DNA of 64,000 nucleotides from an uncultured Oscillospiraceae bacterium (GTDB taxonomy: Bacteria > Bacillota > Clostridia > Oscillospirales > Oscillospiraceae). Location of the stretch: assembly GCA_934589065.1 (NCBI GenBank), contig CAKTNN010000009.1:9230-73229 (forward strand). The letters run 5' to 3'. Under the pieces are notes generated by a model. It was not told the origin of the DNA. It ran no database searches and saw nothing but the letters and a program-made list of their open reading frames with translations. Every line of letters begins with the position of its first letter. The stretch's first letter is position 1. Shown here one piece after another: positions 28,504 to 50,948 of this stretch. A program made the position numbers and the translations under genes.

Positions 28504-28519
28504 AAAAACGCATACGCGT

Positions 28520-28630
28520 ATCTTCTTCCATCCAGACTATACTGTCGGTATCGGAATTTCACCGATTCGGCACTTGCGCGCTCGCGGACTTTACCGCCGG
28601 TGGGGAATTGCACCCCGCCCTGAAGATATT
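28520..28630 (-). ncRNA. FMN (RFN) riboswitch
   Basis: The minus strand carries the conserved RFN elements in order: ATCTTCAGGGCGGGGTG, AATTCCCCACCGGCGGT, AAAGTCCGCGAGC, GAATCGGTGAAATTCCG, then ACCGACAGTATAGTCTGG and ATGGAAGAAGAT. The closing P1 arms (ATCTTC/GAAGAT) pair. FMN binding would expose the downstream terminator and switch off riboflavin import. No anti-terminator is resolved by eye. Confidence 0.95.
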
Positions 28631-28646
28631 CTATTCAGTTGCCACA

Positions 28647-48945: not shown

Positions 48946-49487
48946 GTACCCTATATTTGATTCGCCACGGAAAGACGGAAGCAAACCTGCAGCACCGCTA
49001 CTGCGGCAGTACGGATTTGCCCTTGTCGGAGGTGGGCCTGGAAGAACTACAGGGCCTGCACTATGATATCCGGGGGGCAAAATTTATTGTCAGCGGAATG
49101 CGCCGGACGGAGCAGACGCTGCGTGCGCTCTTTGGGGACGTAGCATACACCGTAAACCCTGCCTTTCGGGAGGTGGACTTTGGCGCTTTTGAAATGAAGA
49201 CCTACCAGGATCTGAAAGACCGCCCGGACTATCAGCGGTGGCTCACAGGGGACAATATGGTCAATGTCCCGCCGGAAGGGGAGAGCGGCGCGCAAATGAC
49301 CGCCCGGGTGCTCTCGGCTCTGCCGGAGCTTATGGGGGAAGATACGGTGCTTGTAACCCATGGGGGCGTGATTGCGGCAATTATGGAGGCGCTCTTTCCT
49401 CAGGAGGGGAAGAACCGCTACCAGTGGCAGCCCACCCCCGGACACGGCTATGCCGTCACCGGAAAAACCTATCGCCCGATCCCGTAA
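48942..49487 (+). CDS. Histidine phosphatase family protein, alpha-ribazole phosphatase (CobC-like)
   Basis: 181 residues from ATG 48942. The phosphoglycerate mutase-like signature LYLIRHGKTEANLQHRYCGSTDLPLSEVG holds the catalytic His; the other His is in VTHGGVIAAIMEALFP, and EVDFGAFEMKTYQDLKD is typical of CobC. It would remove phosphate from alpha-ribazole phosphate or cobalamin phosphate. It is the last gene of the operon. A general phosphatase role is possible. Confidence 0.88.
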   Translation: MSTLYLIRHGKTEANLQHRYCGSTDLPLSEVGLEELQGLHYDIRGAKFIVSGMRRTEQTLRALFGDVAYTVNPAFREVDFGAFEMKTYQDLKDRPDYQRWLTGDNMVNVPPEGESGAQMTARVLSALPELMGEDTVLVTHGGVIAAIMEALFPQEGKNRYQWQPTPGHGYAVTGKTYRPIP

Positions 49488-49494
49488 AAAAGGA

Positions 49495-49523
49495 TTGACA
49501 AAAGAGGGGAAATAGGGTACAAT
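49495..49523 (+). promoter_or_regulatory. Promoter of tRNA-Leu
   Basis: TTGACA and TACAAT with a 17-bp spacer, 12 bp before the tRNA. The -35 overlaps the region just after the cobC stop. Confidence 0.8.
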
Positions 49524-49535
49524 ATCCAAGCACTT

Positions 49536-49618
49536 GCGAGAGTGTTGGAATGGTAGACAAGCACGTTTGAGGTGCGTGTGGTAATCCCGTGGGGGTTCGA
49601 GTCCCCTCTCTCGCACCA
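49536..49618 (+). tRNA. tRNA-Leu (anticodon GAG)
   Basis: An 83-base class II tRNA: acceptor GCGAGAG/CTCTCGC, anticodon stem CACGT/GCGTG around TTGAGGT, a variable arm TGGTAATCCCGTG, T-loop GTTCGAG and an encoded CCA. The anticodon GAG reads CUC and CUU leucine codons. Confidence 0.93.
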
Positions 49619-49621
49619 TGC

Positions 49622-49655
49622 AAAAAGGCACTTGCTTTTGGCAAGTGCCTTTTTG
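49622..49655 (+). terminator. Terminator of tRNA-Leu
   Basis: Arms AAAAAGGCACTTGC and its complement around a five-base loop, followed by ttttt. Confidence 0.88.
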
Positions 49656-49657
49656 CA

Positions 49658-49816
49658 GTGAAATCCGCCCTTTGGACGGGAGAAATCCACGGAAGTGGAT
49701 GAAATCCCTTCGGGAGGAAATCCGCCTGTCGGCGGGAGAGATGGATTTCTTTCACCCGCCTTTTGCGGATTTCGTCTATAAAACAGATTTCACCCTTGCG
49801 CCAGCAAGGATTTCAT
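49658..49816. repeat. Dyad array of eight GAAATCC-type modules with small hairpins
   Basis: Four copies of GAAATCC on the plus strand start at 49660, 49682, 49701 and 49717; four on the minus strand (GGATTTC or AGATTTC) lie at 49743, 49767, 49785 and 49808. Short self-complementary stretches lie between them, such as ATCCAC/GTGGAT, TCCC/GGGA and CCGCC/GGCGG. The whole block has an overall dyad centre near 49733. It ends 25 bp before the S23-type gene. Confidence 0.7.
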
Positions 49817-49841
49817 TATAGAATGAACGTGGGAGATTGAT

Positions 49842-50198
49842 ATGCCAGAGAACACGCTTGCGGATTTATCTATGGAGTTCGCGGTAAACATTTTAAAACT
49901 GACGGGACAAATCAAGGGACACTATTCTCTTATAAATCAGCTGGAACGCAGTGCAACATCCATTGGTGCCAATATTCGAGAGGCAAAGTATGCCCACAGC
50001 CGACCGGATTTTATTTCAAAGCTGCAAATCGCGTTAAAAGAGTGCTATGAATCGGAATATTGGTTGGAACTGATGGTACGTGCAGAATTGATCGATGGTG
50101 ATTCCGCAAAAAAATATTTGCATGACTGCGGCACATTACGCCGTATCCTGATTGCGTCTGTCAATACGGCAAAAGCGCATTCCTCCAAAACTAAGTAG
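49842..50198 (+). CDS. Four-helix-bundle protein, S23/Avd-like
   Basis: 118 residues, all-helical. It matches the S23 four-helix family: LADLSMEFAVNILKLTGQIKGHYSLINQLERSATSIGANIREAKYAHSRPDFISKLQIALKECYESEYWLELMVRAELI. Relatives include the 23S rRNA intervening-sequence proteins and the Avd proteins of diversity-generating retroelements, but no reverse transcriptase is nearby. The start has gggag upstream. It lies between a tRNA and rsmE, next to a dyad repeat array, and may be part of a small mobile or repetitive unit. Its biochemical role is unknown. Confidence 0.85.
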   Translation: MPENTLADLSMEFAVNILKLTGQIKGHYSLINQLERSATSIGANIREAKYAHSRPDFISKLQIALKECYESEYWLELMVRAELIDGDSAKKYLHDCGTLRRILIASVNTAKAHSSKTK

Positions 50199-50222
50199 CA
50201 ATACGGAAACGAGGCCACCTTT

Positions 50223-50948
50223 ATGATTCGATTTTTCATCACCCCGGAGGAGCTTTCCGGGGAAACCATAACCCTAACCGGAGAAAACGCCAAGCATGCC
50301 AGGGTGTTGCGGCTCAAGCAGGGGGAAGAAGTTCTGGTGTGCGATGGCAGGGGAGAGGAGTGCCTCTGCCGGGTAGTAAGCCCGGAGGATTTAACCCTGG
50401 AAGCAGTGCAGCGGCGGCCCTCTTCCTCAGAAGCCGCCGTACAGGTCAGTGCGTATATGGCCTTTCCCAAGGCGGATAAGCTGGAGCACGTGATCCAGAA
50501 AGCAACGGAGCTGGGGGCAAGGGAAATCGTCGCTTTCCCCTCGGAGCGGTGCGTGTCCCGCCCGGACGAAAAGAGCCTGAAAAAGAAGCTGGAGCGGTGG
50601 CAGAAGATCGCCGCCTCGGCAGCGGAGCAATCCGGGCGCGGGGTGATTCCCCAGGTTGTGGTGCTGAATTCCTACCGGGAGGCTCTGCAGCGGGCCGCAA
50701 AAGCCGACAAGGCTCTGCTTTTTTACGAGCACGAGGATACCGTCACATTGCATGACGCACTGGAAAGCAGCCCATGGAAGACGGTCAGTCTGCTTACCGG
50801 CCCGGAGGGCGGCCTGGAAGAGCGGGAAGTGCAGCTGGCGCTGGATGCCGGCCTTACGGTGTGCACTCTGGGAAAGAGAATCCTGCGGTGCGAAACCGCC
50901 CCCCTGTGCGCCCTGTCTGCCGTGATGTACGCCGCCGGGGAGTACTAA
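50223..50948 (+). CDS. rsmE: 16S rRNA (uracil(1498)-N3)-methyltransferase RsmE
   Basis: 241 residues. An N-terminal PUA-like domain (MIRFFITPEELSGETITLTGENAKHARVLRLKQGEEVLVCDG) precedes a SPOUT methyltransferase domain with KATELGAREIVAFPSERCVSR, KLERWQKIAASAAEQSGRGVIP, LTGPEGGLEEREVQLALDAG and the knot segment LGKRILRCETAPLCALSAVMY. It methylates U1498 of 16S rRNA with SAM. The start follows gaggccacctt. Confidence 0.94.
   Translation: MIRFFITPEELSGETITLTGENAKHARVLRLKQGEEVLVCDGRGEECLCRVVSPEDLTLEAVQRRPSSSEAAVQVSAYMAFPKADKLEHVIQKATELGAREIVAFPSERCVSRPDEKSLKKKLERWQKIAASAAEQSGRGVIPQVVVLNSYREALQRAAKADKALLFYEHEDTVTLHDALESSPWKTVSLLTGPEGGLEEREVQLALDAGLTVCTLGKRILRCETAPLCALSAVMYAAGEY

Follow-up and report, generated by a model that had tools for sequence, protein, structure and literature searches.

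Symmetric hairpin arrays and four-helix-bundle genes behind tRNA genes as probable parts of a non-autonomous mobile cassette family in Clostridia

The 3' ends of tRNA genes are classic integrase targets. In the REP/RAYT systems a GTAG-type foot is combined with a Y1 transposase, and Avd of the diversity-generating retroelements works with structured RNA and a reverse transcriptase. A retroelement paper describes Avd with these two partners, and according to it the protein family PF05635 resembles Avd (PMC10053308). S23 proteins occur in intervening sequences (IVS) of rRNA, and the IVS of Coxiella is cut out of 23S rRNA by RNase III (PMC4990558). The Rfam family Gut-1 (RF01706) was published as a human-gut noncoding RNA from environmental sequences only (PMC2864571).

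The DNA analysed in this work, referred to as the window, is a stretch of 64,000 nt from an uncultured Oscillospiraceae bacterium (GCA_934589065.1, contig CAKTNN010000009.1, positions 9,230-73,229, forward strand). A preliminary description had reported four GAAATCC modules on one strand facing four on the other, with small hairpins between most of them, ahead of a four-helix-bundle (4HB) gene, gene and array lying between a tRNA terminator and rsmE as if inserted there. The features of this locus are as follows.

49536..49618, + strand: tRNA-Leu(gag), ending in CCA, the anchoring tRNA (ARAGORN; Rfam tRNA 47.3 bits)
49619..49657, + strand: Rho-independent terminator AAAAAGGCACTTGC / GCAAGTGCCTTTTT, the left edge of the unit (sequence, fold)
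49658..49731, + strand: left half-array of four GAA-linked hairpins (motif positions; Gut-1 match)
49739..49818, - strand: right half-array of TTC-linked hairpins (motif positions; Gut-1 match)
49796..49824, + strand: tentative candidate for a weak sigma-70 promoter, TTGCGC-17-TAGAAT (4/12 mismatches; relatives have promoter-like sites nearby)
49842..50198, + strand: 4HB protein gene, 118 aa (PF05635 / TIGR02436 profiles, structure matches)
50223..50948, + strand: frame which we take from its sequence to be rsmE, in the cargo position, starting 24 bp past the 4HB stop

The reported order of terminator (49619-49657), array, 4HB gene and rsmE frame (from 50223) was borne out, and so were the hairpins: a fold energy of -104.7 kcal/mol (z -8.6) was obtained for 49618-49850, a region that takes in the terminator, and none of 200 shuffled sequences folded equally low. 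The count of modules needs a small correction, as four exact GAAATCC copies are present on the + strand (49660, 49682, 49701, and 49717) but three on the - strand (49743, 49767, and 49808), where the fourth copy, near 49790, has one mismatch. The motif occurs 31 times in the whole window against 14.2 expected, seven of these occurrences lying within 155 bp, and the array has the maximum symmetric-linker score of 8. A chance origin is ruled out by shuffles of motif count, fold, linker score and hairpin slots, and the array is confirmed as real and far beyond chance. The -35 of the promoter candidate is located within the last array hairpin. Despite its cargo position, the rsmE gene is probably a host gene.

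The gene following the array encodes, as had been proposed, a four-helix-bundle protein. It scores 86.3 bits against PF05635 (cut-off 33.8) and 95.6 bits against TIGR02436 (cut-off 24), and these scores above the curated cut-offs, together with its fold, place it in these families. The AlphaFold model (pLDDT 92.7) consists of four helices and matches the structures 2rld and 2gsc; its match to Avd (4dwl) is weaker, the fold being similar (Foldseek E 0.08, TM 0.80) but the identity 12%. As in the 23S rRNA IVS with S23 protein, a homologous 4HB gene accompanies a structured sequence that has entered at the gene of a stable RNA; however, the units described here lie behind the RNA gene, contain arrays of repeated linkers and cargo, and have copies at several tRNAs, and no rRNA match was found in 49400-50400 or in the whole window. 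In G262:C1, seven PF05635 matches were observed, four of them equal in score, and the near-equal copies are possibly 23S rRNA intervening sequences. With the REP/BIME elements and their RAYT the array shares short-motif hairpins in opposed orientations, several copies and a partner protein, whereas its linkers are GAAAT/ATTTC, or the words of other classes, rather than GTAG, its neighbouring gene encodes a 4HB rather than a Y1 transposase, and the unit is anchored to a tRNA.

The Gut-1 model matches both halves of the window array, the left on the + strand (49656-49726, 35.3 bits, E 6e-5) and the right on the - strand (49744-49818, 43.2 bits, E 6e-7). Both scores are under the gathering score of 50, and the window halves are thus not counted as Gut-1 members; in relatives, the left halves exceed this score in 10 of the 15 loci scanned. 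The Gut-1 consensus corresponds to the left half of a GAA-class array, but it was described as a free noncoding RNA, whereas here it forms one of two opposed halves, often linked to a tRNA and in part to a 4HB gene. Elsewhere in the window, an FMN riboswitch is present at 28516-28631 (- strand, 118.7 bits).

Relatives of the window locus were obtained by a profile scan of genome contigs, from which the best 80 of at least 527 confirmed loci were taken; almost all of these come from metagenome assemblies, and most of their titles name Clostridia or Oscillospiraceae. To these were added 30 PF05635 loci, of 51 listed, from 12 genomes already showing a 4HB of the window type. With the window this gave 111 records, or 103 after eight duplicates were dropped. 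The 100 with 200 bp or more of upstream sequence were testable, most having been picked by similarity to the 4HB protein of the window. Within this set, a symmetric array lies upstream of the 4HB gene with a score of at least 7 in 76/100 loci and at least 6 in 84/100; the corresponding numbers were 0/500 and 2/500 for shuffled sequences, and 2/341 and 7/341 for windows elsewhere. Upstream of most listed relatives, hairpins closed by AT...AT are joined by GAA linkers first and TTC linkers after; L054 and L254 show the opposite order, and in L063 the 4HB gene is flanked by one half-array on each side. Slots between linkers close with at least 5 bp in 247/357 cases (262 slots being distinct) against 388/7140 after shuffling. 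Compensatory changes were found at 11 of 21 consensus pairs in 39 aligned arrays, the pairs with changes on both sides including those of an outer helix, AAATCCGTCC/GGACGGATTT, around the left half.

The preliminary description had tied the array to the protein family, and this holds for one clade of 4HB proteins but not for the whole of PF05635. Among the 29 top PF05635 matches from genomes not chosen by the array, which favour other subfamilies in the class genomes, a convincing array was seen by eye in two (L355 and L360); four reach a score of 6, and two of these resemble chance. A rule that arrays accompany all PF05635 proteins was rejected with these 2/29, and the link is limited to one 4HB clade. 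PF05635 proteins are present in 28 of 36 genomes with Gut-1 and in 49 of 255 without it (Fisher p 6e-12). The linker varies by group (GAAATC, GAAATA, TGATG, TGAAGC, GTGATG, TGATAT, GCTAAAT, and others), with 14 labels and about ten different cores; 15 loci were labelled manually on the basis of their DNA, and six rows are mixed. On a 4HB tree made by a quick method (100 proteins, 92 labelled, nine starred branches), linker class changes 20 times, against a mean of 43.3 for shuffled labels and with none of 200 shuffles as low. This co-diversification of linker and 4HB clade suggests a sequence-specific role of the 4HB protein, although joint inheritance may give part of the signal.

The units of this clade are also anchored to tRNA genes. 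Of the 81 4HB loci considered, 72 have 400 bp upstream, and in 50 of these 72 a tRNA gene on the same strand lies within 300 bp upstream, compared with 0/72 on the other strand and 0/72 within 300 bp downstream. The tRNA genes, of 22 species among the loci listed, lie at distances of 145-276 bp. When all loci with 300 bp upstream are considered, a tRNA or tmRNA ends no more than 70 bp from the left edge in 77 of 143, a proportion biased upwards by loci fetched via their tRNA flank. A single terminator arm recurs at 10 left edges, which follow eight tRNA species. In L093, an array-bearing locus, a tRNA-Thr and tRNA-Tyr pair is present in three tandem copies at steps of ~500 bp.

Arrays were also collected independently of the 4HB gene. 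A search of 291 class genomes for Gut-1 gave 36 positives at E 1e-7, and the best array was fetched for 29 of the 35 besides G013. A tRNA or tmRNA gene on the + strand lies within 400 bp upstream of 15 of these 29 arrays; none lies there on the - strand, and one lies downstream. For the remaining 14, no tRNA is present upstream or downstream, whichever strand is considered; contig ends cut some of these loci short. A 4HB gene adjoins 7/29 arrays and is lacking in 22/29, some of which have little downstream sequence. In two genomes, 40 Gut-1 matches include seven opposed pairs within 50 bp, and once opposed halves, and matches for which there is no locus, are set aside, 27 array loci remain, of which three have a 4HB gene and 24 do not. 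All nine of these loci with a complete GAA-class right half follow a tRNA, compared with one of 18 in other classes (either side or strand), a split that was made after the data had been seen and in which the weakest of the 18 are possibly not arrays. In G013, arrays with GTGATATT-like linkers (L268, L270, L276, L280, L282, L286) lie off tRNAs, and array classes therefore seem to have different target sites. The preliminary description had held that its reading would be refuted by wide occurrence of the array without the gene, or by a lack of association of the gene with the array elsewhere; the first of these two was found, as arrays are common without the gene, and "array joined to gene" is accordingly recast as a cassette that is often without its 4HB gene. 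This kind of tRNA-end hairpin-array cassette appears widespread; we found no earlier description of it, nor, among the papers listed, any link between Gut-1, tRNA ends and four-helix-bundle genes, in a search largely of papers outside subscription.

Insertion could be followed at both ends at one site, tRNA-Gly(tcc). In L010 (G006) the tRNA, ending in ...CTCCA, is followed by GAAAAGAAACACC..., a terminator, an array, the 4HB gene, cargo and a right end, then by a second terminator and array, and last by a terminator resembling the relatives' own near tRNA-Gly(tcc), a resemblance given by a BLAST match for L215 and judged by eye for L213 and L214. The upstream flanks of L213, L214, and L215 are 79-82% identical to that of L010 over about 945 bp and the downstream flank aligned also in L213 (69%), but these three loci have no array: the L214 site is bare, and a small element of another kind is present in L213 and L215. 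It follows from this comparison that units lie between the CCA and the native terminator and bring a terminator of their own. At tRNA-Gly(gcc), before what by eye is the same downstream gene, L321 has no array, L322 has an array of the TGATG class and L324 an element of the TTCAT class. At tRNA-Arg(cct), L018 contains a unit, L227 another 4HB gene without a GAA array, and L219 an array without a 4HB gene, and in L217 and L218, where the tRNA is inverted, neither is present. Relative to conserved flanking genes, the anchoring tRNA points one way in L217, L218, and L221 and the other way in L018, L219, and L220, whether or not an array is present. Units in tandem were observed in L010 and L012.

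At the window itself the site is less clear. Neither the array nor a window-type 4HB gene was seen by eye before rsmE in 30 family relatives (up to 330 bp each), and thus the window either gained array and 4HB gene there or the whole tRNA unit moved. The inserted look noted in the preliminary description is supported to this extent. However, in 16 of these 30 relatives the rsmE homologue lies beside a tRNA-Leu(gag) on the opposite strand, 109-219 bp away, and since its direction differs the window site does not form a clean occupied and empty pair; no clean empty site was obtained from these relatives, in which tRNA-Leu(gag) is divergent. The first close rsmE relative, L111, has no tRNA, and a search for rsmE on plasmids gave no match. 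In L130, a relative of the organism of the window, the gene immediately before rsmE is also a 4HB gene, but a different one.

Downstream of the 4HB gene a variable gene is often found. Among the loci listed, 76 have enough downstream room, and in 34 of these the next frame overlaps the 4HB stop (25 by ATGA, four by one base, five by more); in 12 it starts within 60 bp, and in 30 none was found. A scan of 20 among the 46 next frames gave Pfam matches above the cut-off for 10 (two GNAT, and one each of pyrophosphatase, DMP19, WapI immunity, DUF4279, methyltransferase, ASCH, AAA, and a membrane domain), matches below it for two, and no match for eight. In L007 and L059 the cargo is 91% identical and the 4HB proteins 69%; linker class and tRNA differ. 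In L107 the 4HB gene is, by eye, cut down to its first codons ahead of the next gene. A 50-nt right end is present in 13/81 loci, in 12 of them at 351-1142 bp past the 4HB gene and in one before the array, and was not found at the window unit. A T-arm-like right end follows 11/126 arrays, compared with 60/4000 random windows. A common right end with this T-arm-like word, GAGTTCGAA(T)TCATACGCA..GCAAAAATATCTTTTT, was observed in L031, L082, L083, L086, L260, L266, and L304, which are mostly gene-less. Within 75 bp before the 4HB start, a -35/-10 pair occurs with at most two mismatches in 35/75 loci (shuffled 3.3%) and with at most three in 47/75 (shuffled 25.5%). Of the 55 loci with a site of at most three mismatches in the last 110 bp, 36 have a -35 that starts no more than 12 nt ahead of the point where the last linker ends and no more than 6 nt beyond it. 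Viral contigs gave no exact match to the right-end pattern, one 4HB and one array pattern, and a phage collection one weak match of 110 bp; a reading as phage cargo is not supported by these matches.

We consider that the array and the 4HB gene belong to mobile gene cassettes that form a non-autonomous family, with a probability of roughly 0.65. A mobile unit of this kind had been suggested in the preliminary description, and it fits the occupied and unoccupied sites at tRNA-Gly(tcc), at both ends, and at tRNA-Gly(gcc) by eye; the tRNA 3' end as the site, the travelling terminator, the cargo, the linker co-diversification and the Gut-1 match go beyond that description. Units of the GAA class lie on the sense strand directly past the CCA of tRNA (and tmRNA) genes. 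As read from the sequences, a unit carries its own terminator and a symmetric array, in which the right-half linker is the reverse complement of the left, and many units have a promoter-like site, the 4HB gene and a variable gene overlapping its stop, some also the conserved 50-nt right end. The co-diversification and position of the 4HB suggest that the array is bound by it and that it has a role in movement: a 4HB oligomer may recognise its cognate linker-hairpin modules as ssDNA, dsDNA or RNA, it may control its own promoter and guide insertion or excision, and an enzyme in trans would supply the catalysis. Derived units of this kind, either stranded or moved in trans, would explain the copies without a 4HB gene and the 4HB remnant.

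Other explanations must be weighed against this one. The units might be satellites of an ordinary tyrosine or serine integrase that acts in trans at tRNA 3' ends, with the array and 4HB merely regulatory or stabilising. This agrees with the known preference of integrases for such ends, with the tandem units of L010 and L012, with the T-arm-like word (GAGTTCGAA..) after some arrays, which is possibly the imprint of an attachment site, and with the different element at the same tRNA-Gly site of L213 and L215, which duplicates the tRNA 3' end. However, no long tRNA repeat flanking the array units was seen by eye, an identical 50-nt right end occurs behind different tRNAs, the array and the 4HB are nearly missing from viral contigs (one locus each), and the linker co-diversification points to a sequence-specific role of the 4HB; we regard this explanation as unlikely. 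That the array is an operator to which the 4HB binds as autorepressor, with copies spreading by homologous recombination between tRNA terminators and no dedicated mobility, would account for the promoter-like sites close before the 4HB gene, for the siting of the -35 at the last linker and for the tracking of 4HB clade by linker. It is nonetheless improbable, as most arrays found outside the 4HB-based searches have no adjoining 4HB gene, orthologous sites are both occupied and unoccupied, and the sense-strand siting behind 22 tRNA species and tmRNA, and the travelling terminator, are left unexplained. Gut-1 as first proposed, a stand-alone noncoding RNA gene cotranscribed with tRNAs or lying behind them, is in keeping with the conserved single-strand structure and its compensatory changes, but the model fits the other half on the opposite strand as well, both in the window and in the opposed pairs of the two genomes, and at most loci read by eye a terminator separates tRNA and array, which makes this the least credible reading, with very little chance of being correct.

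The mobile cassette reading invites comparison with integron cassettes, which are likewise tandem units with small variable genes (here GNAT, immunity-like, ASCH, and DUF) and folded landmarks; however, they enter one attI, whereas here many tRNA 3' ends are used, and the units bring a terminator and in many cases also a promoter-like site and 4HB gene. For tRNA-targeting integrative elements (genomic islands, tycheposons) the tRNA 3' end is a safe site as well, but the present units are short and carry the terminator along, which would be a neat way of inserting behind an essential tRNA. By analogy with Avd one may speculate on a cassette system of gut Clostridia lacking its own integrase, in which the 4HB is the sequence-specific adaptor for its cognate array and mobility proceeds via RNA. 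As the left border is the tRNA 3' processing site, tRNA maturation would in this case make the 5' end of a cassette RNA, and a complex of 4HB and array would pass this RNA to a reverse transcriptase or another enzyme in trans, a proposal that is at present doubtful. Gut-1, an orphan Rfam family, gains a context from these observations, and the S23/TIGR02436 proteins gain a candidate nucleic-acid partner with natural specificity variants. If the mobility is true, small genes such as acetyltransferases and immunity-like genes would be exchanged behind tRNA genes in gut bacteria.

Two further kinds of element were observed behind tRNA genes. A second small element of ~150 bp (L213, L215, L084) has a hairpin GGAAGAAAACAGTC..GGACTGTTTT and ..GCGATAGGCGCGTTGCGCCGG and lies after tRNA-Gly and upstream of an array; in L213 and L215 it ends with a copy of the tRNA 3' end, in which the array units differ from it. 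In the other element (L233, L253, L256, and L324), TTCAT-rich arms replace the small hairpins, and a 4HB gene follows in three of the four loci.
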